Positions 47,196 through 60,339 of a DNA stretch of 64,000 nt are shown here, piece by piece (positions within the stretch are counted from its first letter, which is position 1; every line of letters begins with the position of its first letter). The stretch covers positions 62,001 to 126,000 of the forward strand of contig CACILM010000002.1 in assembly GCA_902587515.1 (NCBI GenBank), in the 5' to 3' direction. This DNA comes from an uncultured Pelagibacteraceae bacterium (GTDB lineage Bacteria > Pseudomonadota > Alphaproteobacteria > Pelagibacterales > Pelagibacteraceae). The notes under the pieces were generated by a model, which made no database searches, was not told where the DNA came from, and saw only the letters and a program-made list of their open reading frames with translations. Position numbers and translations under genes: made by a program.

Positions 47196-47268
47196 GCCCT
47201 CATAGCTCAATTGGTAGAGCAATTGATTTGTAATCAATAGGTTCGCGGTTCGAGTCCGTGTGAGGGCA
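47196..47268 (+). tRNA. tRNA-Thr (TGT); no encoded CCA (followed by CCG)
   Basis: GCCCTCATAGCTCAATTGGTAGAGCAATTGATTTGTAATCAATAGGTTCGCGGTTCGAGTCCGTGTGAGGGCA cloverleaf with TGT anticodon. Confidence 0.96.
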
Positions 47269-47270
47269 CC
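47225..47270 (+). repeat. left 46-bp direct repeat (attL-like, within intact tRNA-Thr)
   Basis: GATTTGTAATCAATAGGTTCGCGGTTCGAGTCCGTGTGAGGGCACC. Confidence 0.9.
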
Positions 47271-47272
47271 GC

Positions 47273-47296
47273 AAACTAAGTAAATCCTTAGTTTTT
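47273..47296 (+). terminator. rho-independent terminator downstream of tRNA-Thr
   Basis: AAACTAAG-TAAATC-CTTAGTTT perfect 8-bp stem followed by TT. Confidence 0.6.
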
Positions 47297-47396
47297 AAAT
47301 TAATAAAAAATTATTTTACAGAACATCAATAGTGCAAGTGATATAAACAGAACGACTTGTGGTGTCCGAGATTAGCAAGATCAAGTTAAATAGATA

Positions 47397-48023
47397 CTAA
47401 TAACTTTTTTTCATAACTTCATTTAATTCAGAAGAAACAATACTTACTTTTAAATTTGGCATCCAATTATTATTTATTCTATATTTTTCTTGCCAGTCTG
47501 TACAATTAATTCCAATAACTTCATTATTTTTAAATCTAAACCAAGAATTATAAGAGGTACTAGTTTTATCGTAAGCGTGTTTTTTTGTTTCACGCACAGC
47601 TTTTATATTTAAAGTTTTTTCTATATCAAGTTCAATTTTAAATCTTTCTTTATTACAATCATCAATTTTTTTAAACCTAATGTATCCTTGAACGCCAATA
47701 ATTTTATAATTTACTTCATCTAATACAGTGGCTCCTACAAAATCATAAAAGGAAGCTTTTCTCTCACCTTTCCTCGCGGGCTCATCTCTGTGAGTTCTAA
47801 TAATTTTTGCTTTGGAATTATTGTAAGAAAATGTGGAGCGATGATTAGCTAAAGATCTTAATTCACTTAGTGAAAAAAAATCTAAGAGACTGCCTCCAAC
47901 ATTCATTTCCTCAATTTGAAATTCTTCAATATTATTGGCCTTAGACGGATAAATAAAACCTAGACACAGAACTAGAGAGTAAATAAAGAAATATCTCATA
48001 TTAAAGTGATAAATTTTTTTCAT
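47397..48023 (-). CDS. small exported protein, island paralog family member 1
   Basis: Signal peptide, then NIEEFQIEEMNVGGSLLDFFSLSEL; C-terminal CTDW; similar to ORFs at 48046, 57525, 58217, 58810. Confidence 0.8.
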   Translation of the reverse strand: MKKIYHFNMRYFFIYSLVLCLGFIYPSKANNIEEFQIEEMNVGGSLLDFFSLSELRSLANHRSTFSYNNSKAKIIRTHRDEPARKGERKASFYDFVGATVLDEVNYKIIGVQGYIRFKKIDDCNKERFKIELDIEKTLNIKAVRETKKHAYDKTSTSYNSWFRFKNNEVIGINCTDWQEKYRINNNWMPNLKVSIVSSELNEVMKKSY

Positions 48024-48045
48024 GATCTTAATATTTTATCTGGTT

Positions 48046-48624
48046 CTAATAAGCATTTGTATTTAACCAGTTTAAAAGTTTTTTTGTATAAATATCAAAT
48101 ACCAAACTATCATTAATACCTGTATCTTTATCCCATTTATCACATTTCACAGAAATTTTTCCGCCTTTTAATTCATACATTATATGTTTGTATATAAATC
48201 CTTTTTTAGATGTATGTTCATAATTATCTTTTCTGTATTTCTTAGCGCCCTTAAATAAATCGTCTAAACCTTTTTCAGCATTATTAAATTCTTTTAAACA
48301 TTTTCCTTTATCGCTAATGTGCTTTGCACCAGTGAGTGCATGAATTTTATATAGATTATCGTTTTTTTCTAAATGAAATTGAATTTCATCAAAATTTTTT
48401 AGATTAAATTCATCATTTTTAAAAAAAGTAACACTATAGAAATCATCAGATTTATAAAGATCATAGGATGAGTTCTTTTTTTTTAAAATTCTTTCTTTTG
48501 AAATAAATTTTGTTAAAGGATCTAAAATGCTGATACCCTCTAGTTCGAAATCTTTTATACCATTTGCTTTTGAGTGAGTAACGGTAGTAAACAATATAAA
48601 TATTATTAATAAAAATTTTTTCAT
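48046..48624 (-). CDS. small exported protein, island paralog family member 2
   Basis: Signal peptide, GIKDFELEGISILDPLTKFISKERI; CDKW; C-terminal NAY. Confidence 0.8.
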   Translation of the reverse strand: MKKFLLIIFILFTTVTHSKANGIKDFELEGISILDPLTKFISKERILKKKNSSYDLYKSDDFYSVTFFKNDEFNLKNFDEIQFHLEKNDNLYKIHALTGAKHISDKGKCLKEFNNAEKGLDDLFKGAKKYRKDNYEHTSKKGFIYKHIMYELKGGKISVKCDKWDKDTGINDSLVFDIYTKKLLNWLNTNAY

Positions 48625-48627
48625 AAT

Positions 48628-49473
48628 TTAAAATAATATAGCTGCCATAACTATTAAAGTTACTAGAATAGCAGCTGATATATATGAATATAAAACTTCG
48701 ATATTTTGTACTCGAGTTTTATCTATTGATTCTGTAATTTTTTTTAATTGTTCTCTTCTATAGTAATAGATGAGACTAATCATAAATATAACCGATAAAA
48801 GAGGAAAAATACTTGCCGCTCCATAATAATTATACGCACCATGAAAAACTATTGGTAAAGATAAAGATAGAATTAACATTATCCTTCTTTTAAAAATATT
48901 TCTTTCTTCAAATAAATTTAGACTTAATAACCACCCCATTAAAACTCCAAAACCCATATGCATAACAAGGGGATAATATCTTGTTTTAACCATTTGTATT
49001 GTCCATGCATTTTCTAGACTAGAGCTGGATAAGTAACCGACATTTTCTATCGCCGCATAACCAAGGCCTATGGCTGCACCATAAACTATTGCATCCATTG
49101 GTTCGTTTAGAGCTGATAACCTGACACAAAAGAATATAAGTAACGCAAATTTTATTCCCTCCTCTAAAAAAGCTGCTCTAAAAAAACTTTGATATGCATT
49201 TTCTGCTACAGGAAAAGTAGCTCCTGCAACTTTATAACCGCCATCGATATATTCATTGTAAGCGTTTATATCTAAACCCAACAGAGGACCTAAGTGATCC
49301 TCTGCGAGCATTACGAATAAATGTAGCGGTAAAACTATCGATGCACCTAATAAAAATGATGAGAACAAAAATTTACCTGGTTCAGGAAATCTATCTGATT
49401 TCCAAACTGCAATTCCTAGCAATATAGGTGGTAGTACTGTTGAAATATAAAGAAAGGAAGGATCGGTAAACAT
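48628..49473 (-). CDS. PrsW-type intramembrane metalloprotease
   Basis: Multi-TM with FLEEGIKFALLIFF (EExxK), DAIVYGAAIGLGYAAIENVGYL, YPLVMHMGFGVLMG, PIVFHGAYNYY motifs. Confidence 0.9.
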   Translation of the reverse strand: MFTDPSFLYISTVLPPILLGIAVWKSDRFPEPGKFLFSSFLLGASIVLPLHLFVMLAEDHLGPLLGLDINAYNEYIDGGYKVAGATFPVAENAYQSFFRAAFLEEGIKFALLIFFCVRLSALNEPMDAIVYGAAIGLGYAAIENVGYLSSSSLENAWTIQMVKTRYYPLVMHMGFGVLMGWLLSLNLFEERNIFKRRIMLILSLSLPIVFHGAYNYYGAASIFPLLSVIFMISLIYYYRREQLKKITESIDKTRVQNIEVLYSYISAAILVTLIVMAAILF

Positions 49474-50387
49474 TATTGAATATCAAGTTGTTTAATTATC
49501 TCATAATTATCAACACCAATGTAATTAAATAAATCTTCCCAGAGTTTTACAAGTGAACTTGATAAACCATCTCTAGTTTCATAGTCATGATTTATATATA
49601 AAACAGTTACTTTTAAATTTTTTAAGGTTTGTTTGTTTGGTTTTCTATCATCTATATAATTCTTTACTTTTTTATTTTTAATTAAATTAGCAAATGATTT
49701 ACATTTATTTGGTTTTACAATTTCTAGATTAGTTTTGCAGTGATTATAAAATGAAAATCTTTTTGAATACTGCATTAAATCAGAAACAATAATTAATTCT
49801 CTCTCTGGATAGTCAGGGGTAAAATCTACTTTTGCTTCTCTTAAAACATGAAAAAAATATTCAAATATTAAACTTTGTTTTCCTTCGGGAGCATTTACGC
49901 TTAAGAAATTTTTTTCAAATTTATTAGTCAACTCATTCCAAACAAAAAATGCTTCTTTTATTCTCTTGTATCCTTCACACTTTGTATTTGCTTCTTCACC
50001 TTCAAATTTAGATTTATCGCCAGTTTTGAATCTACATTTTGAGTAATTAATAGTTTGTGATTGAGGCGGAGTATCGTCAATTTTCATGTAAGAAATCTTA
50101 TGATAAGGAGGGGTGTTTTTTATTAAAACGTCTCCAAAAATTCTTCCTTGAATCCAATCAACTTGGGCTTGTTTTAAGGGAGATGTAAAATCGACTAAAA
50201 AAAACTTGTGACCTAGTTTTGAATTTAAGGGACAAAATTGGTTAGGATCTTCAAAATCAATTATAATAGGATTCTTGCTATCCTGCCAACATTTAGGGTA
50301 ACCTTTGGGAAGTTCCGCAAAAGACTTAACAGAAATTGAAAATAAAAGAATTACAAAAATAGATAATTTAACAGTATTAAATTTCAT
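49473..50387 (-). CDS. exported protein with von Willebrand A-like features, unknown function
   Basis: Signal peptide; FFLVDFTSPLKQAQVDWI (degenerate MIDAS-like), ELIIVSDLMQYSKRFSFY, KVTVLYINHD alternation of beta cores; translationally coupled to neighbours. Confidence 0.6.
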   Translation of the reverse strand: MKFNTVKLSIFVILLFSISVKSFAELPKGYPKCWQDSKNPIIIDFEDPNQFCPLNSKLGHKFFLVDFTSPLKQAQVDWIQGRIFGDVLIKNTPPYHKISYMKIDDTPPQSQTINYSKCRFKTGDKSKFEGEEANTKCEGYKRIKEAFFVWNELTNKFEKNFLSVNAPEGKQSLIFEYFFHVLREAKVDFTPDYPERELIIVSDLMQYSKRFSFYNHCKTNLEIVKPNKCKSFANLIKNKKVKNYIDDRKPNKQTLKNLKVTVLYINHDYETRDGLSSSLVKLWEDLFNYIGVDNYEIIKQLDIQ

Positions 50388-51876
50388 ATTTCTTTCTTAT
50401 ATCTTCAATTTTTAAATTAATTTCACTTTCATAAGTGTTAATTAAATTAATATGATCATTAGCAGCAGATTGTATTTTATTTTGATAACTTTCTATTTTT
50501 TTTTCAATCTCATCTTTGCTCAAATATAAAACTGCAATATCAGAAAATACTTCTTTAGGATCACTTTTTCTTGGACTTAAATTATAATAACGAGTTTTCA
50601 TTTTACCATTAGCATCTTTCCAATATTTTGGTGCGTCATCTGTTCTGAAGTTTGCATTGATGGATCTATATTCACCTAAAGCATGGTCTATAGAGTCATC
50701 AATTTCATTAGCGAATCTTTTATAGCTTGAAAATGTATTTTCTAAAGATGTTATATTTGGTCTCCATTGTTTAATTAGAATATTTGATAAAATTGAGTCT
50801 CTTCTTTCACCGGTGTCTTTTATCTCATTTTTAAATATTTTTTGAACTTCCGTGGCTAGATGTTCCCTAATTCTATTAATTTCTTTTTTATCTTCATTTC
50901 TTGTTTTACCAATATTTCCAAATTCAGGGTATGTGTCCCCAAAAAAGTATCCGTCAATTAAGGATGCTATCGCAAATCCAATTCCTAAAAAAATTAATAC
51001 TAGTGAAATAAAATTTAGCTCAACAGTCCAGGGTAAAAGTTCGTTAGCTGTTTGGGCTGCTTGATCTACACCTGAAGTATTTCCTCTCATCTTATCAACC
51101 ATTGATACACCACCTGTATCGTGAATTGCTCTATATGCTCCTAAAATCCAATTTAAATAAAATATAAAAACTAGGTAAACGGTTAATCCTATTTTACCTA
51201 TTACTCTTCTACTTTGCTTAATATGATTAAAGTTTTTTAATGCAAAGAAACCAATTCCAAAAGAGACCAAAACATTGAGAGCGGCTACAGTAATAGAAAC
51301 AGCTAAACCTGCTTTATCACCACCACCAAACGCTGGACCAAGAATTCTTCCGTTTGCTTGATACTCAATAAGAAATAAAATTAAAATTACTGAAAGACCA
51401 ATTATTATATTCAATGTTGTTAACGATTTTGGCTCTCTATTTAATTTATTTTCCAATTTAAAATTTCTCACTTCTCTATCATGAGTATTGTATGAATCTT
51501 TTAAACTAGATAATCTTCCCTCCGCACTTACTAATGTCTGTTGTATCCTTCCTTTAAAATCTTCAATATAAAAGTTTTTTTGTCCAAGCTTGGCAGTACT
51601 ATCAATAATTTTATCTTTAATTGAATTTAAATAAGAGGCGGCTTTTGAAACTTGATCATTTCTTATTTCATCTGCGTATACAATTGCTTCATTTTCACAT
51701 ATAGAAAAATTTTCAGAATTTGATCTTGGAATATTGTTTTTACCATCTGTAGTGGCATTTTCTTTTAGATTTATTTTATCTTCCAAAGCTTTAACTTTTA
51801 TATTTTCAAAATCGTAGCTCATATTATTTTTTTTAAAAATTCTCTTAATCCTATTTATTAGTTTTTTTAATTTCAT
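50377..51876 (-). CDS. membrane protein with four predicted TM segments flanked by coiled-coil regions
   Basis: TM stretches LNIIIGLSVILILFLI, AVSITVAALNVLVSFGIGFFAL, IGLTVYLVFIFYLNWIL, LNFISLVLIFLGIGFAIASLI; charged helical flanks; overlaps 49473 ORF by 11 bp. Confidence 0.75.
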   Translation of the reverse strand: MKLKKLINRIKRIFKKNNMSYDFENIKVKALEDKINLKENATTDGKNNIPRSNSENFSICENEAIVYADEIRNDQVSKAASYLNSIKDKIIDSTAKLGQKNFYIEDFKGRIQQTLVSAEGRLSSLKDSYNTHDREVRNFKLENKLNREPKSLTTLNIIIGLSVILILFLIEYQANGRILGPAFGGGDKAGLAVSITVAALNVLVSFGIGFFALKNFNHIKQSRRVIGKIGLTVYLVFIFYLNWILGAYRAIHDTGGVSMVDKMRGNTSGVDQAAQTANELLPWTVELNFISLVLIFLGIGFAIASLIDGYFFGDTYPEFGNIGKTRNEDKKEINRIREHLATEVQKIFKNEIKDTGERRDSILSNILIKQWRPNITSLENTFSSYKRFANEIDDSIDHALGEYRSINANFRTDDAPKYWKDANGKMKTRYYNLSPRKSDPKEVFSDIAVLYLSKDEIEKKIESYQNKIQSAANDHINLINTYESEINLKIEDIRKKYEI

Positions 51877-51950
51877 AATAATTTTATTCTTATTTCAACC
51901 TTTTATTTGAATTTTTCTCCCCCTTTTTACAAAGAGGGAGTAATCAATTA

Positions 51951-52190
51951 CTAGTCACCGTCTTTTCCTGCGCTCATTAATGCAGCTCCAATAAATCCAA
52001 AGATCATTGGAGAAAATCTTGAAGCAGCACCCATAAAGCTAGTAAGGTTAACTCCAGCCCAAGACATTGCAAAGTCTGCTATTGCGAAGGCTATTAACAA
52101 GAAGCCTAATACCTGCAAACCTGATGTAGAACTAGTCTCATTTTGTACTTTTGCTTTTTTCATTTTTTTTCCTTTGGTTTGTGTTTTCAT
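51951..52190 (-). CDS. small two-TM membrane protein
   Basis: LQVLGFLLIAFAIADFAMSW and FSPMIFGFIGAALMSAG; first gene of the leftward cassette. Confidence 0.7.
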   Translation of the reverse strand: MKTQTKGKKMKKAKVQNETSSTSGLQVLGFLLIAFAIADFAMSWAGVNLTSFMGAASRFSPMIFGFIGAALMSAGKDGD

Positions 52191-52221
52191 GATTTAAATA
52201 TAGTTGTTCTTGTAAAAAATT

Positions 52222-52291
52222 CTTGTCCACCTTTTATAAAAAAATTGGACAATTAAATTTAAGTCCAAAATTAAAAATAATATTGGACAAG
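52222..52291. promoter_or_regulatory. cluster of four TTGGACAA-like half-sites in divergent intergenic region
   Basis: CTTGTCCA (52222-52229), TTGGACAA (52245-52252), AAGTCCAA (52261-52268), TTGGACAAG (52283-52291), alternating in orientation. Confidence 0.55.
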
Positions 52292-52323
52292 AAAAATAAA
52301 TAAAAATTTAGTATTATTTATTT

Positions 52324-52557
52324 ATGAAAAAAATAATTTTAACAATTTTAATAATTTTTAGCTCAAGCTCTTTATATGCTTCAGAAATGAATGTGCTTTT
52401 AGATCAAAATTATAAAATAATCAAAACTGAGATAATAAAATTTGATCAAGATGCTCAAAAAATTTTTACTTTGCAAAATGGTAAAAATATTTTTATATGC
52501 TCTGTTCAAATAGAAGACATGGGCGGTTTAATTAGCTCTGAATGCATAAAACCTTAA
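52324..52557 (+). CDS. small exported protein of unknown function
   Basis: Signal peptide MKKIILTILIIFSSSSLYASE; first of four tandem + strand ORFs. Confidence 0.65.
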   Translation: MKKIILTILIIFSSSSLYASEMNVLLDQNYKIIKTEIIKFDQDAQKIFTLQNGKNIFICSVQIEDMGGLISSECIKP

Positions 52558-52561
52558 AATA

Positions 52562-52759
52562 ATGAAAAAGATTTTAATTATAATAGGTTTTAGTTTGTTA
52601 ATATCGTGTGATCGCGCGGAGCCATTAGTAAAGAAATCTAAGAACGGTATTTGTCATAAAGTTGGTACTAGATATTATGATCAAACGAAACACTTTAAAA
52701 ATTTTTCATCAATTGAAGATTGTATAAAAAGTGGTGGTAGATTACCAAAAAGAAGGTAA
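52562..52759 (+). CDS. small putative lipoprotein
   Basis: MKKILIIIGFSLLISC lipobox-like N-terminus; 4 bp after previous ORF. Confidence 0.65.
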   Translation: MKKILIIIGFSLLISCDRAEPLVKKSKNGICHKVGTRYYDQTKHFKNFSSIEDCIKSGGRLPKRR

Positions 52760-52801
52760 ATAAATTATAGAATTTTTAAAAATTTTATCTAAAATATTCT
52801 T

Positions 52802-54223
52802 ATGATTAAAAATTTTAAAAAACTAAGCATACTACTTTTTACGAGTTTTTTTCTATTCACATCGGTTGAGGCTAATTGGATAACCAAAAAAAGCGACAAA
52901 TCTAAAGAAACTATTAAAGAGGAGAAAAAACAAAAATCTGAATGGATTAAACTTAAAAAAAAAGAAATTAAAAAAAATAAAGAAGATTACAAAAAGAAAG
53001 AAAAAAATATTTCTAAAGAAGTTAAATCATGGATAACTAAAAAGATAAAAAAAGATAAATTTTTAGAAATAAATTCTCTTCCAAATTCTCAGATTTATTT
53101 CACAGCTTATGCTAGTGATGGAAAAATTTTTTATGGTTATATTAATGATGATAAAAAATCCGAAAAATTTAGTTTTCAGGGTAATTCAATATATAAAATA
53201 AGTAAAGGTAAAGGCTACATTCAAAATAATAAAGCAGTTTGTAATATTGCAACTGAAAGAGGAGTAATTGCAAACAACATAATTGGTTTTGTCTCTGGAG
53301 AATGTAACGATAAAACAAAATTTACAGGTCAATATAGCCAAAAAAGTAAAAGCGGAAGTGCAGAAACTGAGCAAAAAATAAAAATTAATTTTAGTTTTGA
53401 TGAAAATTTAAAAATATCAAAAGATCAAATTGCTCAACTAAATAAAAAAAATAACATCACTGATCAACCCAATTTACGTGCACCTACTGATGTGGCTGAT
53501 ATAACTTTAAGTCCAAATGGCAAATACTATGCACTACTGATTGGAAATTCTAATTATGTAAAATGGTCATCACTAAAATCTCCAGTAAATGATGTTAGTG
53601 AAATAAAGAGAGTACTTGAACAAAAATATAAATTTGAAAAAGTGATATCTGTCATAAATGGAACAAGGAAAGATATCTTTAAAGCCATTAATGAACTGAC
53701 AAAAATTACGACAGATAAAGATTATGTCTTAATTTATTATTCAGGACATGGTGATATACGGTCAACTCAATCTTATTGGATACCAGTAGATGGAGCCAAA
53801 GATTATGATCCTACAGAATGGATAAATATTAGAGATATTGAAGTTTATCTAGAAAATGAAATTTCTGCTCATCATCTAGCTGTAATGGTTGACTCATGTT
53901 ATTTTGCTGTTGCCACAAAAGGTAAGACAAAAGTTGATAATAAAAATAAATCTTTAGCCTACAGTAAATTATTAAATCGGAGAGCAAGAATAATACTATC
54001 TTCAGGTAGCAATGAACCAGTAGAAGATACTACAAATAAACACTCTAAGTTTGCAACAAGTTTTATTCAATCTCTTAAAAATAATCAGAAAGCAATTAGA
54101 TTAAGTGAAATAACTGAAAATATATTCATTGATCATGCTGGTTCAAGACAACAACCTTACTACGCAAGAATAATGTCTTGGGGACATGGTGGTGGTGATT
54201 TTATATTTATCTCTAGAAAATAA
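52802..54223 (+). CDS. predicted exported caspase-fold (peptidase C14) protease
   Basis: KYYALLIGNSNYVKWSSLKSPVNDVSEIKRVL, catalytic His in YYSGHGD, catalytic Cys in VMVDSCY; N-terminal signal peptide MIKNFKKLSILLFTSFFLFTSVEAN. Confidence 0.9.
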   Translation: MIKNFKKLSILLFTSFFLFTSVEANWITKKSDKSKETIKEEKKQKSEWIKLKKKEIKKNKEDYKKKEKNISKEVKSWITKKIKKDKFLEINSLPNSQIYFTAYASDGKIFYGYINDDKKSEKFSFQGNSIYKISKGKGYIQNNKAVCNIATERGVIANNIIGFVSGECNDKTKFTGQYSQKSKSGSAETEQKIKINFSFDENLKISKDQIAQLNKKNNITDQPNLRAPTDVADITLSPNGKYYALLIGNSNYVKWSSLKSPVNDVSEIKRVLEQKYKFEKVISVINGTRKDIFKAINELTKITTDKDYVLIYYSGHGDIRSTQSYWIPVDGAKDYDPTEWINIRDIEVYLENEISAHHLAVMVDSCYFAVATKGKTKVDNKNKSLAYSKLLNRRARIILSSGSNEPVEDTTNKHSKFATSFIQSLKNNQKAIRLSEITENIFIDHAGSRQQPYYARIMSWGHGGGDFIFISRK

Positions 54224-54228
54224 TAACA

Positions 54229-55506
54229 ATGAATAAAAAAATTTTAATTGTATTAATTTCAATCTTTTACAGTTATGCAACACAGGCAGAAATAACTTCT
54301 AAGTTAATTTTAGAGTCAAAGTTAAAAGGGAAAGAATCTATTAGTATTGCGGTTACTCCTCTTACTGAAAAAAAACAAATTAAGGAATTAAAAGTAAATG
54401 TAGAGTCTAACAAAAATTATTTAAATGTTATTAGACCAAAATTAATTAGCAAAAATAAAAATAGACCGTCTAGAACTAAGTTTAAAGGACCAGCTGAAGA
54501 AATTTTTAAAGATTATGCAAAAAGTGTTGTTTTTATAGGAAACTATAAAAAAAATGGTTCTGGCTCTGGATTTGTTGTCAATCATAAAGGAAAAAAAATA
54601 ATAACGAATTGGCATGTAATTGAAGGCACTAAAAAAGTAAGAGTATGGTTAAAACCTGAAAATTTAGTGAATGAAAGATACATGTTAGATAATTTAGACT
54701 CTTATGAGGCGAAAGTAATAAAAATAGATAAAGAGAAAGACTTAGCTTTATTAGAAATCATTGGTCTACCGCAGGATATTAAAGCTGTAAAATTTGGTGA
54801 TTTTAAAAATGTAAATATTGGTGAAACAGCTTTCGCTATTGGCCATCCAGGAGATTTAATTTGGAGTTTCAATAATGGAATGGTGAGTCAATTAAGGAAA
54901 GATTATAAATGGAAATATAAAAATTCTAATCACTTTGCGGATGTAATACAAATCCAGGTTCCAATAAATCCAGGAAACTCGGGTGGCCCTTTATTTAATA
55001 AAAATAAAAAATTAATTGGAGTTAATACTTTTACTGCTGATGGTGAAAATTTAAATTTTGCTATTTCAGTGAATGATATGATTGAGTTTTTAAATGAACC
55101 TGAAAAAATTAAAGAAAATAAATATATTAAAAAGAAAAAAAAGGGTCCTACTTGGATAACTAAAAAAAGCAAAAAAGTTAAAGAAAATAGTATAGATAAA
55201 AAATATCCTAATGCACAAAAAGGAGATATGAATGAAAACGGATCTACCGATATATGGTTTTTAGATGAAAATAAAAATGGGAAAATAGAAACCGCAGTCA
55301 TAGATGCAAATGAAGATGGTATTATTGAGACAGTAGCTTTTGATGAGAATGAAAATGGAAACTTTGAAATATTTCTATTTGATGATGACTTAGACGGTAA
55401 TGCTGATAGAGCTGAAATAGATGAAGATGATAATGGTTCTTCAGATATTATGGCTTATGATAATGATCAAGATGGTTCATGGGATAGATATGAAAAAATA
55501 TCATAA
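54229..55506 (+). CDS. predicted exported HtrA/trypsin-like serine protease with C-terminal Ca2+-loop-like repeats
   Basis: SGSGFVVNHKGKKIITNWHVIEG, EKDLALLEI, INPGNSGGPLFNKNKKLIGVNTF (H/D/S triad); signal peptide; C-terminal DxNxNG repeats; no PDZ evident. Confidence 0.9.
   Translation: MNKKILIVLISIFYSYATQAEITSKLILESKLKGKESISIAVTPLTEKKQIKELKVNVESNKNYLNVIRPKLISKNKNRPSRTKFKGPAEEIFKDYAKSVVFIGNYKKNGSGSGFVVNHKGKKIITNWHVIEGTKKVRVWLKPENLVNERYMLDNLDSYEAKVIKIDKEKDLALLEIIGLPQDIKAVKFGDFKNVNIGETAFAIGHPGDLIWSFNNGMVSQLRKDYKWKYKNSNHFADVIQIQVPINPGNSGGPLFNKNKKLIGVNTFTADGENLNFAISVNDMIEFLNEPEKIKENKYIKKKKKGPTWITKKSKKVKENSIDKKYPNAQKGDMNENGSTDIWFLDENKNGKIETAVIDANEDGIIETVAFDENENGNFEIFLFDDDLDGNADRAEIDEDDNGSSDIMAYDNDQDGSWDRYEKIS
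55225..55497 (+). repeat. seven tandem 13-aa (39-bp) calcium-loop-like repeats inside the HtrA-like protease
   Basis: DMNENGSTDIWFL / DENKNGKIETAVI / DANEDGIIETVAF / DENENGNFEIFLF / DDDLDGNADRAEI / DEDDNGSSDIMAY / DNDQDGSWDRYEK. Confidence 0.92.
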
Positions 55507-55511
55507 GTGCT

Positions 55512-55988
55512 TTAATCATTTTTTCTTTTACCATCAATCGTAAGCTTAATTTTAAGTATTTTATTTTCTAGATCCGTTATTGCTTCAAAAATATCTTTTT
55601 TTTCTAAAGCCGATATTTCAACACCCTTCTCGCCTTTAGGATCCTTAGCGTCTTTAACAAGTTCCGTGAGTTTTCCATGCAAAATTGTAGATTTTACTAA
55701 CATCTCGTTAATATCCTTATTTTCAAAATTATCAGCTTTCTCTAACAACTGTGCAATCATATACTCGTAAGCGGTAAGTAAAGGTGGAGCTTTGCCTTTT
55801 TGAATACAGGCTTGATCAAGTTTAAATGAGTCGTTGTGATCAATTTGTTGGGCTAAATCAGGATTACTGCATTTTCTAAGATATGAGGAAGTTTTGCCGA
55901 TTGCTCTGTTTATCTCTTCATCAGATAAGATTTTTAAAACCTCCATTAAACCACTCTCTATAGAGGCGCTTTTTCTTATTTTTGCCAT
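55512..55988 (-). CDS. small cytosolic protein with possible HTH N-terminus, unknown function
   Basis: No signal peptide; ILSDEEINRAIGKTSSYLRKCSNPD resembles HTH-like segment; helical C-terminus. Confidence 0.6.
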   Translation of the reverse strand: MAKIRKSASIESGLMEVLKILSDEEINRAIGKTSSYLRKCSNPDLAQQIDHNDSFKLDQACIQKGKAPPLLTAYEYMIAQLLEKADNFENKDINEMLVKSTILHGKLTELVKDAKDPKGEKGVEISALEKKDIFEAITDLENKILKIKLTIDGKRKND

Positions 55989-56026
55989 TTCAAATATTAT
56001 GATTATAATAAATCAAACTCAACTTA

Positions 56027-57499
56027 TTGTTTATGAACTTGATGAAATATAAATTTCTTTTATTGCTTTTTTTAAGCATTGTATTATCTGACTTTTTTCA
56101 AGCTAAAGCAGATGTAGAAGAATTTCACAATAAAATAAGTGAAAACTATACAGAAATTATTGGACAATACCCTTTTCAGGAAAGAAGGAATGATATTGGA
56201 ATATTTTATGATTTTGCTTGGGATAAAAATAACAAGAAAATTATCATAAAAAGAGATAATCAAAATTTACCTATTATAAGATTTTCTTTATTTAACAAAG
56301 ATATTCAACCAGGTGTTTCTATTAAAAAATATAATGATACAGATTTATCTCAAACTTCAGATGAAGAAATAATAAAACTTCATAAACAAAAAGTTGAAGC
56401 AAAACTTACTTTTAAAGATAACCAAATAATCTCTCTTAAACCCAACATCTATGATTACAATGATATAAAGCTATCTAATTTTTATTTAGAATTTATAAAT
56501 AACATTGATACTAACAAAGGGTTGCTAGAAATCACATTTGAAGCAAACTTTACTAATAAAAGACCTGAGCTTAATTCATTAGCTGAAGGGTTATTGGGGG
56601 ACAATGAATATTGTGCTGAACGTTATATTGGACCATATCCCATAGACCAAATTCGTATTAATGAATACAAATATGATGTTGATATAAGAACAGGTACTGG
56701 AACTCCGGTCCCTCCTGAAGGATGTTATCCTATATTTTTTACTTATGATAACAATGAAGTAAAAACTATTAGGTCCGAACTTGGTATAGGACAATTCAGA
56801 CAAGTTTTTGATTTTAAAAAGTTTCCTTTTGATAAACAGAAATTAAAAGTTTCAATCCGTACTAATGCGCATAGCAGTCAAAACATTTCAGAGATATGGC
56901 CAAAAACAGGTTATGGCGCAGTACATTTTTTAACGCCTGAGAGAGGTGCATTTTTAGGATTAGAGGAATACATAAATAACATCTCTAAAAATTATCTAAA
57001 AGAATGGACCGTTAGCAATACCAATATAGAAAGTGAAGTATTAATCTTAGAAAATTATTACAGTCCTTATACGAATAAAACTTATCCTTTCCATGAAAAT
57101 TCTATCAACTTAGTTTTAGATATCGAAAGAAATTCTGCTCATTACGTTTATAAAATTATTATCCCTGTGTTTCTAATACTAAGTGTCGCGTGGTTTGTTT
57201 TATGGATTCCTACTCACCACCTAGAGTCTAGATTGACAACTTCTATAGTTGCTCTATTAGCTTTGATTGCATATAACTTTGTTTTTTCAGATGATATTCC
57301 TAAGCTAAATTATTTGACTGCATTAGATAAATATATTTTATTGTCCTATATCTTCTGTTGTATACCCACTTTTATGAGTATTGGATTTAGTAGGTTTATA
57401 GTTAGAAATCAAAGAATGGTAACAATTGTAAATAAAAGACTTAGAACCTGGTTAGGACTGGTTTATTTATTAGCTTCTATACAAATATTTAGTTTTTAA
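56027..57499 (+). CDS. pentameric ligand-gated ion channel (Cys-loop receptor superfamily) homologue
   Basis: Signal peptide; FDFKKFPFDKQKLKVSI (FPFDxQ loop); C-terminal four TM segments with ELIC/GLIC-like M1-M2: IIPVFLILSVAWFVLWI...LESRLTTSIVALLALIAYNFVFSDDIPKLNYLTALDKYILLSYIF. Actual start may be ATG 56033 or 56042. Confidence 0.9.
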   Translation: MFMNLMKYKFLLLLFLSIVLSDFFQAKADVEEFHNKISENYTEIIGQYPFQERRNDIGIFYDFAWDKNNKKIIIKRDNQNLPIIRFSLFNKDIQPGVSIKKYNDTDLSQTSDEEIIKLHKQKVEAKLTFKDNQIISLKPNIYDYNDIKLSNFYLEFINNIDTNKGLLEITFEANFTNKRPELNSLAEGLLGDNEYCAERYIGPYPIDQIRINEYKYDVDIRTGTGTPVPPEGCYPIFFTYDNNEVKTIRSELGIGQFRQVFDFKKFPFDKQKLKVSIRTNAHSSQNISEIWPKTGYGAVHFLTPERGAFLGLEEYINNISKNYLKEWTVSNTNIESEVLILENYYSPYTNKTYPFHENSINLVLDIERNSAHYVYKIIIPVFLILSVAWFVLWIPTHHLESRLTTSIVALLALIAYNFVFSDDIPKLNYLTALDKYILLSYIFCCIPTFMSIGFSRFIVRNQRMVTIVNKRLRTWLGLVYLLASIQIFSF

Positions 57500-57524
57500 T
57501 GTAGAGGTGATGTTCATGATAGAA

Positions 57525-58166
57525 CTAATTAACTAGAACCTGTTTCATTAACCAGTCATTGTATTTATCTGTTTTTATTACGACGCCAGCAGAACTCTCA
57601 TAAGTTTCTGCAATTTTACCTTTATAATATATACAAGAAATCTCTACCTCGTAATATTTGGATTTTGGATCGATTTTAAGGCCAGTTCTGTAAGACATGC
57701 TTTTGCCAGTAGTATCAACTGCAGCTGCCTCATCTCTGCGTATAACTTTTGCATCAGGATAAATAGGTTTAATTTCATCAAATATATTTTCTTTTAAAGC
57801 TACACATTCTTTCTCTGAAGAAAAGCTTTTTCCAACGTTTTTTGATAATGCCCCCGCTAACACTTCAATAGTGTAATTTTTATCGTTCTTTAACCAATAT
57901 ATTTCTATAACATCATAAATTTTGTACTTAAATTTTGAAGTATTGCTGTATTCACCAAACCTGTTGTCATAAATTGCAGCAAAAACATATTTATTGTCTG
58001 TTCGTGGTATTTTGTGTGAGCTCATCTTAATTAATTCTTCATCAAAATATTTTAATGCACTATCGCCGATACTTATTCCTTCAATTTCAATATCTTTAAT
58101 ACTTTCAGCATGAACGGGAATTGAGATAAGTTTTATTAAAAAGATTATTGTGATAATTTTTTTCAT
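57525..58166 (-). CDS. small exported protein, island paralog family member 3
   Basis: Signal peptide then SIKDIEIEGISIGDSALKYFDEELIK. Confidence 0.8.
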   Translation of the reverse strand: MKKIITIIFLIKLISIPVHAESIKDIEIEGISIGDSALKYFDEELIKMSSHKIPRTDNKYVFAAIYDNRFGEYSNTSKFKYKIYDVIEIYWLKNDKNYTIEVLAGALSKNVGKSFSSEKECVALKENIFDEIKPIYPDAKVIRRDEAAAVDTTGKSMSYRTGLKIDPKSKYYEVEISCIYYKGKIAETYESSAGVVIKTDKYNDWLMKQVLVN

Positions 58167-58216
58167 ATAATTTTTATAAAATAAAAAAATTTGTTATGTC
58201 TAATTAGTGTTTTATA

Positions 58217-58810
58217 TTAATTATAAGCTTCATATGTTACAAAATTTAAAAATTCCTCAGAACCAACCATTACCTTAAGAGTATCTTCCCAACCATTTTT
58301 AGTAAACATTTTTTCAGACCAATCAGTACAGGAAGCTCTAGCAAAACCACCACTTTTTGGATAAAAATCTGTTTGATCTACAATTGACTCATTGGATTTA
58401 TCTGTAGCGTGTGGCGATTCTCTCTCAAACATCTCGGCATTTTTTAATAGCCCTTTTATTTCTAAAACAATATCAGATTTATCTTTTTTGCATTTTTTAT
58501 AATTATCAGGATAGGTAATCCTGCCCACTAAATTATGGATCAAAAAGTTTTTATCGTTTGGTTTATAAGTTACTTCTATTTGTTGATATTTCTCCGAACT
58601 TTTATTTGAAAAAATTACTATGTATCTTTTATCTTTATAATAAGTTGAGTTTTCTTCTGCTTTTTTTATTTCATTAATACTCATAAAATCTAACAATTTA
58701 TCCCCTATACTCATACCTTCTATTTGAAAGTCACTAATATCATCAGCTTTGGTCCAGGATTGAAGGGTAAAAGTTAAAATCATTATTGTTAAAAATGCCT
58801 TTAAATACAT
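58217..58810 (-). CDS. small exported protein, island paralog family member 4
   Basis: Signal peptide then DISDFQIEGMSIGDKLLDFMSINEIKKA; CTDW; C-terminal EAYN. Confidence 0.8.
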   Translation of the reverse strand: MYLKAFLTIMILTFTLQSWTKADDISDFQIEGMSIGDKLLDFMSINEIKKAEENSTYYKDKRYIVIFSNKSSEKYQQIEVTYKPNDKNFLIHNLVGRITYPDNYKKCKKDKSDIVLEIKGLLKNAEMFERESPHATDKSNESIVDQTDFYPKSGGFARASCTDWSEKMFTKNGWEDTLKVMVGSEEFLNFVTYEAYN

Positions 58811-59409
58811 TAATAAGCTTCATTTTGAAGAAAATCTCTTCCTTCTTGAGACTCAATATTTACTTTTAAATTATTATCGTAACCTTCATTTTTTAATTCT
58901 TCGCTCCAAATATAACATTCAGCCGATAAAGTACCTTCGCTTGGAAAATCTAAATAAATACCATTTGAAATACTTTTTCCTGATTTATCTATGGGATGTT
59001 TTAAAAATCTATCAACCACTTTTTTTGCGGAAGGAGCCATTTCATGCAAAGATTTTATAATTTCATCTTGTTTTTTTAAACACTTTTCTTTTGTTTCTGT
59101 ATTTTTGCTTAGTATTCCCGTAACAGTATATATTTTATAATTTTTTGTATCCAAATTAAATTGAACACTATCATAAATTTGAAAAGTTCCTCTATTTTTA
59201 AAACGTAACATACCAATTCTTTTGCTATTTGGATAAAATGCGATTTCTCTCTTCAATATAAATTCTTTTGTTACACCAAGTTTTTCTGCTTGATCCAACA
59301 GGTTGCTAAAAATTGTTATCCCTTCTATCTCAAAGTCTTCTATATCATTAGCTTGGGATGGTATTATGAAACATAAGGTTAAAATGATAATAGCTAAAAA
59401 TTTTTTCAT
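58810..59409 (-). CDS. small exported protein, island paralog family member 5
   Basis: Likely start at MKKFLAIIILTLCFI (59409), not the longer GTG-started ORF to 59472; DIEDFEIEGITIFSNLLDQ; C-terminal NEAY. Confidence 0.8.
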   Translation of the reverse strand: MKKFLAIIILTLCFIIPSQANDIEDFEIEGITIFSNLLDQAEKLGVTKEFILKREIAFYPNSKRIGMLRFKNRGTFQIYDSVQFNLDTKNYKIYTVTGILSKNTETKEKCLKKQDEIIKSLHEMAPSAKKVVDRFLKHPIDKSGKSISNGIYLDFPSEGTLSAECYIWSEELKNEGYDNNLKVNIESQEGRDFLQNEAY

Positions 59410-59521
59410 TTCACTATTATAAATAAATTCATTGTGGTGTCCAAGATTAAACTTCTTGACCGATGACTCCACTATCCTTTATTATCAATGATAATAGAAA
59501 GAATAATGTACCTTGCTTGAA

Positions 59522-59567
59522 GATTTGTAATCAATAGGTTCGTGGTTCGAGTCCGTGTGAGGGCACC
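59522..59567 (+). pseudogene. orphan tRNA-Thr 3' fragment (attR-like direct repeat copy)
   Basis: GATTTGTAATCAATAGGTTCGTGGTTCGAGTCCGTGTGAGGGCACC followed by A, i.e. a complete CCA end; no 5' half. Confidence 0.9.
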
Positions 59568-59571
59568 ACTT

Positions 59572-60339
59572 TTAATAAGTTTCTTTTCTTAATTGTTCTA
59601 ACTTAATTTTCTTTTGGAGACTTTTATTTTGATCATATAGTAAATTGAATCTAATTTTATTTTGTACTTTTATAATAATTTTTTTTGCATTTCTAATTTC
59701 TACATTGTCTGCTACTGCACTAACTGGTCTCTTATTTGAGTTTAAATTTAGAATAGTTATTTTTGATTTATCACTAACAATTTTTCCTCTCCACCTTCTT
59801 GGTCTAAAAGCACTTATAGGTGCAATAGAAATTTTTTTAGAATTTAAACTAAGTATTGGTCCATGCACTGATAAATTATACGCAGTGCTACCTGCCGGCG
59901 TAGATACTAACACGCCGTCAGAAACTAAATTTTTCATTATATAAGTTGATCTATTTTTAATAGATAAATTTGCTGCCTGTCTACTTTGTCTCAATATAGA
60001 GACTTCATTAATAGCTAAACATTTGATATTTTTTTTTCTATTAGTAACAATCATTTCCAGAGGTGAAATATTAATCATATTCGACTTATTAATATTTTTA
60101 ATTAACGAATTTTTAGAAAATTTATTCATAAGAAAACCGTAGTTTCCGGAATTTACACCGTAAAAATATCTTTTAGTTTTTTTATTTCTCTTTAAAGTTT
60201 TAAGCATAAACCCATCCCCTCCAACAACAATTGCAACATTTGTTTTTTTCAGCGATGTATTTTTAAAAATTTTTCTAATTTGATTTTTAATCTTTAAAGA
60301 TTTCGAGTTGCTATCAGATATTATTAAAGGTTTACTCAT
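59572..60339 (-). CDS. nadK: NAD kinase
   Basis: VAIVVGGDGFMLKTL, GVNSGNYGFLMN, DGVLVSTPAGSTAYNLSVHGPIL. Confidence 0.96.
   Translation of the reverse strand: MSKPLIISDSNSKSLKIKNQIRKIFKNTSLKKTNVAIVVGGDGFMLKTLKRNKKTKRYFYGVNSGNYGFLMNKFSKNSLIKNINKSNMINISPLEMIVTNRKKNIKCLAINEVSILRQSRQAANLSIKNRSTYIMKNLVSDGVLVSTPAGSTAYNLSVHGPILSLNSKKISIAPISAFRPRRWRGKIVSDKSKITILNLNSNKRPVSAVADNVEIRNAKKIIIKVQNKIRFNLLYDQNKSLQKKIKLEQLRKETY

Follow-up and report, generated by a model that had tools for sequence, protein, structure and literature searches.

The window analyzed here, 64,000 nucleotides of contig CACILM010000002.1 from an uncultured Pelagibacteraceae bacterium (a SAR11 genome of 1.05 Mb in 18 contigs), contains an island at the 3' end of a tRNA-Thr gene that probably belongs to a family of non-autonomous cassettes, which have attachment (att) sites only and are moved in trans by an unseen helper integrase. 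The cassettes encode no enzyme that could move them, and something else must therefore do so. How defense and surface genes are gained and swapped in streamlined, integrase-poor ocean bacteria such as SAR11 is poorly understood; here, cassettes with the same end signals hold unrelated cargo, in two cases a DNA-restriction system. Their recognizable 22-bp end signature makes the gene-swap question testable, as it can be used to count insertions, to find circles, and to fish the helper integrase from metagenomes.

The boundaries of the island in the window are set by four features:

47196..47270, + strand: tRNA-Thr(TGT), reconstituted (ARAGORN; repeat; empty/occupied comparison)
47225-47270, + strand: left attachment core, the 3' part of tRNA-Thr (repeat comparison)
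59522..59567, + strand: right attachment core, read as the original host tRNA-Thr 3' half, now an orphan (repeat comparison)
59572..60339, - strand: nadK, the first gene past the site in empty genomes (PF20143/PF01513)

A reading made earlier from the sequence alone had reported a 46-bp direct repeat with one mismatch, its left copy completing a tRNA-Thr and its right copy an orphan 3' half beside nadK. The repeat search and ARAGORN both agree with that description: the two copies are identical at 45/46 nt, far above chance; no others occur in the whole assembly, even with three mismatches permitted; and the right copy was not called as a tRNA by ARAGORN. Between the copies lie 12.25 kb and fifteen predicted proteins, and the nadK stop codon is only 4 bp past the right copy. 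The left tRNA ends in CCG and the right remnant in CCA, as at empty sites, which is expected if the element supplied the present 3' half of tRNA-Thr. The G+C content of the island (0.28) is only slightly lower than that of the left flank (0.30-0.34), and the right flank is lower still; composition is therefore weak evidence.

Surveying 169 genomes of the genus, we located the tRNA-Thr 3' end in 113, and nadK was in reach at 90 loci, the window counted. The site is empty, with tRNA-Thr abutting nadK (<=38 nt apart), in 53 of the 90, and this is the commonest state in the genus; intervening DNA is present in the remaining 37. Repeat-bounded inserts of 0.84 to 13.8 kb, one with an inverted copy, were found at tRNA-Thr in eight other genomes (inserts without a repeat between tRNA-Thr and nadK were excluded from this count):

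G083 and G068: 0.84 kb and 0.88 kb, one secreted-protein gene each
G157: 1.8 kb, one 537-amino acid gene
G010: 5.1 kb, a complete type I restriction-modification (R-M) system
G194: 6.2 kb, another type I R-M system, different from that of G010
G059: 13.8 kb, numerous secreted paralogues, a caspase, and a trypsin
G026: tandem inserts of 5.9 kb and 3.3 kb, a giant coiled-coil protein and a ResIII-type helicase
G162: inverted copy

The empty site that the sequence-only reading had suggested looking for thus exists, precisely this point is occupied by different DNA in other genomes, and that reading's proposal of an integrated, tRNA-associated element is supported; conversely, close relatives do not all carry the same 12 kb by vertical descent, an outcome that would have told against it. 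Two occupied/empty pairs are close: G010, with its type I R-M insert, and the empty G023 have flanks 95.3% and 94.6% identical, and those of G068 and G036 are 93.9% and 93.6% identical. On an rlmB tree the eight carriers need eight changes, i.e., there is no clustering and scatter is maximal. In G157 the insert lies past the same tRNA-Thr but in a different gene context. Since the right copy is tRNA sequence, it might be taken, as the sequence-only reading had allowed, for a degraded tandem duplication of tRNA-Thr unrelated to integration; however, the start of the right copies within the anticodon stem is nearly constant, what comes before it is sequence specific to the element and not a tRNA 5' half, and most relatives have a single tRNA-Thr and no remnant, so that this explanation is excluded for all practical purposes.

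In two genomes, G162 (L010) and G009 (L058/L134), the tRNA-Thr core or the element is inverted relative to rlmB and nadK, which may reflect an inversion between cores or a chimera of single-cell amplification. It is scarcely credible that the elements at large are assembly or amplification artefacts of single-cell genomes: whole-genome amplification chimeras could explain the inverted arrangements, but only these, and the same junction geometry is found in several independent assemblies. The inserts without a repeat (L005:2833-3970, L009:11946-13242, and about 25 other loci) mostly have a G+C of 0.21-0.26, resemble sugar or surface genes, and represent a second kind of variability at tRNA-Thr/nadK.

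Inserts of unrelated cargo share about 125 bp of sequence at the left end and about 110 bp at the right. In the window these ends, and the units within them, are:

47271..47395, + strand: conserved left end, common to the G083, G010, G068, and G009 islands of other cargo (alignment; nhmmer E 1e-26 to 5e-35)
47358..47366, + strand: putative arm-type unit TGTGGTGTC, offset +87 past the tRNA end (motif comparison)
59428..59521, + strand: conserved right end, common to G010 (type I R-M) and G026 (coiled-coil giant protein) (alignment; nhmmer E 7e-29 to 2e-35)
59433..59441, + strand: putative arm-type unit TGTGGTGTC, offset -89 before the right core (motif comparison)

Across the junction of an excised circle, the expected order would be right end (...ACCTTGCTTGAA), tRNA-Thr 3' half, and left end (CAAACTAAGTAAATCC...). 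Across the family, each end has a pair of 9-bp units, spaced 11 bp apart and running in one orientation, at +87/+98 nt past the tRNA on the left (+86/+97 in one case) and at -100/-89 nt before the core on the right (-99/-88 in one case). The unit occurs in two versions, A (TGTGGTGTC) and B (TGTAYTGTT); three elements have A at both ends, three have B at both ends, and none is mixed. The agreement in class between ends, over seven elements, would arise by chance about 1 time in 35, and the fixed spacing and the rarity of the motif are thus the stronger evidence: the double-unit motif has 11 matches in the 169 genomes, every one in a tRNA-Thr island (a reversed-pattern control gave 0), and a single isolated match outside the genus, in about 350 other SAR11 genomes. 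About ten matches to the arm motif in non-SAR11 genomes were taken as chance, there being no tRNA-Thr and no clear integrase nearby; one of them has a weak integrase-like match near it. We also considered the paired units as promoters of the secreted-protein genes and rejected this, because restriction-system elements end in them too, because they are found at left ends from which no gene begins, and because they are not found nearby when this gene family sits at other loci.

Two structural parts of a lambda-type att layout are found: a tRNA core with an identity block at both ends and, for the family, repeated units that flank the core on either side at a fixed distance. In nearly all elements the duplicated block, positions 30-75/76 of the tRNA, starts inside the anticodon stem; the sequence there, ATTGATT-TGT-AATCAAT, is a palindrome. 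Symmetrical tRNA sequences of this sort are recombination sites for lambda-type tyrosine integrases, which bind repeated arm sites on both sides. In the favored reading, an incoming circle with a tRNA-Thr 3' half would recombine with the host tRNA-Thr inside its anticodon stem-loop; the host tRNA would keep its own 5' half and gain the 3' half of the element, the original 3' half being displaced 12.3 kb, to nadK. The paired units would be the arm sites of a lambda-type tyrosine integrase having an arm-binding domain, and such a helper, encoded by a temperate phage, satellite, or integrative element outside these genomes, would both integrate and excise cassettes in trans. With two unit sequences, A and B, there would be two helper specificities for one tRNA.

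Islands may then grow in two ways, through repeated insertion next to the tRNA and through the capture of blocks of genes. In G026, three tandem cores delimit two elements, one having a class A right end and the other being a complete class B element. The middle core, which is unlike both outer cores at a single position in the stem, joins the class A right end to the class B left end, as serial insertion predicts. Some inner end copies in G059 have no cores and look like fossil ends of earlier insertions.

SAR11 swaps other islands by homologous recombination (PMC4033161), and the tRNA-Thr islands could in principle have been exchanged likewise, through the conserved rlmB/tRNA and nadK flanks after DNA uptake, with the repeat merely a passenger of one old event. 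We regard this as improbable, since it leaves unexplained the paired-unit ends at fixed offsets, the matching of unit classes at both ends, the precise insertion between the near-identical flanks of G010 and G023, and the G157 insertion at the same tRNA in a different gene context. Homologous recombination may still spread islands once they have integrated.

A Pfam profile search of the ORFs between the repeat copies gave no integrase match, which bears out what the sequence-only reading had seen, and no conjugation gene. The rest of the genome, where that reading had proposed a search, has one tyrosine recombinase (317 amino acids; L001:1135-2088), the only PF00589 match in the assembly, about 102 kb from the island. 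Of the 169 genus genomes, 123 have a tyrosine recombinase, and most of these have one of like size (about 309-327 amino acids). The 317-residue protein has a SAM-like core-binding domain at residues 17-81 and falls far under the XerC and XerD cut-offs and likewise under that of TIGR02249 (integron integrase); it is conserved and Xer-like, and may do the XerC/XerD job. Because no arm-binding domain was detected in it, it appears a poor candidate for the trans-acting enzyme of the cassettes. Integrases in other genus genomes were also discarded as helpers, being phage- or satellite-like and, in cases with a neighboring tRNA, adjoining tRNA-Leu, -Glu, -Met, -Pro, or -Val, never tRNA-Thr. Prophage-like elements with integrases of 446-453 amino acids (one truncated at a contig start) lie at tRNA-Leu(TAG) in several genus genomes (L121, L123, L124, and L130).

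Several points weigh against movement by a helper. No helper integrase, no circle junction, and no phage with core plus arms was found in viral, phage, and genome collections, and the assemblies are drafts. The assignment of the paired units as putative arm-type sites in a lambda-type layout is inferred from their geometry. The left arms are absent in G059 and in the first G026 element, and the window has one A unit per end (+87, -89) where others have a pair; the window copy may therefore now be impaired or fixed, and its present mobility is in doubt. Viral contigs that matched the core or the arm motif were examined and set aside: they were either phage contigs of a different kind that bear tRNA-Thr, or unrelated phages at 48-50% G+C.

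The single units and the repeat mismatch of the window, together with the degraded right core of G068, would also suit decayed relics, i.e., islands that arrived with their own integrase, later deleted, and that are no longer moved in trans; cis-mobilizable elements (CIMEs) are known to arise by decay to an att-only state (PMC5704250). However, none of nine elements contains an integrase or an integrase remnant, and two of them, only 0.84-0.88 kb long, have one intact gene between complete ends. Independent decay should fray the ends and break up genes, not leave different cargo enclosed by intact ends. Relics are thus unlikely. The sequence-only reading had supposed a recombinase either lost or acting in trans: the island indeed has none, action in trans is favored by the paired end motifs common to unrelated cargo, and loss is disfavored.

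Going beyond a trans-acting helper, we tentatively raise the possibility of an integron-like cassette economy at one tRNA gene in one SAR11 genus, in which cassettes are obligately integrase-free, may be as small as one gene, and have cargo swapped between two conserved end types, with A and B recognized by separate helper integrases that are absent from the sampled cells. No description of a tRNA-Thr cassette family in SAR11 was found in the open-licence papers searched. A close structural parallel is to CIMEs, defined as keeping att sites and lacking integration genes (PMC5704250); in Dehalococcoides, fifteen module-free islands at ssrA stand beside sixteen with modules (PMC3146451). Like CIMEs (e.g., those of Streptococcus and the Dehalococcoides ssrA islands), the cassettes are bounded by attL and attR, have no integration or transfer genes, and can accrete in tandem at one RNA gene, and the window island keeps both att sites and lacks both kinds of gene. 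CIMEs, however, are described as decayed companions of integrative conjugative elements (ICEs) and integrative mobilizable elements (IMEs), whereas the tRNA-Thr family extends down to one gene and has paired units at conserved spacing in two classes. An autonomous relative was found neither in the 169 genus genomes, nor in the about 350 other SAR11 genomes, nor in viral/phage collections. The family thus has both structural hallmarks of CIMEs; any descent from an autonomous element is putative.

Tycheposons, known from Prochlorococcus and reported in Methylophilaceae (PMC10872708), likewise place cargo at tRNA genes in streamlined marine picoplankton, and those reported carry a tyrosine recombinase; the window island shares the tRNA-gene site but has no recombinase on the element, and so is not a tycheposon in the strict sense. 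The additive flexible island at tRNA-Lys of 'Ca. Methylopumilus' (PMC10872708), 330 bp to 42 kb long, resembles the tRNA-Thr family in its variable size and content and its repeated tRNA 3' ends; there, however, the repeat is 20 bp, and the passages on it describe neither arm-like end motifs nor a mobilization mechanism. Integron cassettes, including clusters of attC sites lacking integron-integrases (CALIN), are passive and moved in trans by the integrase (PMC11389934), but they are bounded by attC sites, whereas here the boundary is a tRNA 3' half with arm-like repeats; the window genome has no integron integrase.

Phage satellites normally encode an integrase and regulators. Satellites such as phage-inducible chromosomal islands (PICI) and phage-inducible chromosomal minimalist islands (PICMI) are likewise helper-dependent islands, but the cassettes have neither component. 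There were no phage structural or replication genes among the Pfam matches of the island ORFs, and the PHROGs matches of ten of these ORFs are to protease-like and unknown families only; judged by its gene content, the island is not a prophage.

The genes carried by the window island are listed below.

47397..48023, - strand: i01, small secreted protein, 'DFxIEGxSIGDSLL' family (ORF, family alignment; no Pfam above cut-off)
48046..48624, - strand: i02, secreted paralogue (ORF, profile search, family alignment)
48628..49473, - strand: i03, PrsW-family intramembrane protease (PF13367, 4e-25; motif conserved in 7 genomes)
49473..50387, - strand: i04, putative secreted protein, no family (ORF, profile search, cross-genome comparison)
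50377..51876, - strand: i05, membrane protein, no family above cut-off (ORF, profile search, cross-genome comparison)
51951..52190, - strand: i06, small membrane protein (ORF, profile search, cross-genome comparison)
52324..52557, + strand: i07, small protein, signal-peptide-like N-terminus (ORF)
52562..52759, + strand: i08, small putative lipoprotein (ORF)
52802..54223, + strand: i09, caspase-like peptidase C14, signal-peptide-like N-terminus, GHG...DSC dyad invariant (PF00656, 2.5e-21)
54229..55506, + strand: i10, HtrA/trypsin-like protease, acidic DxNxDG repeats, catalytic triad invariant (profile search, cross-genome comparison)
55512..55988, - strand: i11, conserved cytoplasmic-looking protein, no family above cut-off (ORF, profile search, cross-genome comparison)
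56027..57499, + strand: i12, pentameric ligand-gated ion channel homologue (PF02932, 1.3e-6; PDB ELIC/GLIC and eukaryotic channels)
57525..58166, - strand: i13, secreted paralogue (ORF, profile search, family alignment)
58217..58810, - strand: i14, secreted paralogue (ORF, profile search, family alignment)
58810..59409, - strand: i15, secreted paralogue, ATG start; the ORF caller stretches it to 59472 (family alignment)

The small secreted family has five paralogues in the island, and a fold search with it gave no significant match. The block i03-i12 comprises the PrsW protease, the caspase-like peptidase, the HtrA/trypsin-like protease, the ion channel homologue, and six uncharacterized proteins. 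Its close kin lie at different loci in six other genomes (L053, L012, L164, L165, L166, and L167), past tRNA-Leu(TAA) in three, between tRNA-Cys and tRNA-Asn in one, and with no tRNA nearby in two, and secreted-family genes adjoin them in each. Between the window and G068, 4.5 kb of cargo is 94% identical, as against 85% and 81% for the flanks and 45% (protein) for the neighboring caspase. On this evidence, the cargo block is itself mobile, and its exchange between the window and G068 was both recent and mosaic. No substitution occurs across seven genomes in the caspase dyad, in the trypsin triad, or in the PrsW glutamates, which indicates that the cargo is maintained. The block is a candidate multi-gene system, whose role might, as a guess, be that of a cascade of periplasmic proteases linked to a channel. 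Overall, the ten-gene block (window 48628-57499) occurs in seven genomes with mosaic divergence. At L012:4691-8650, a 3.7-kb insert beside tRNA-Leu(TAA) ends in a second tRNA 5' half plus about 90 bp of upstream sequence, the mirror image of the usual 3'-half duplication.

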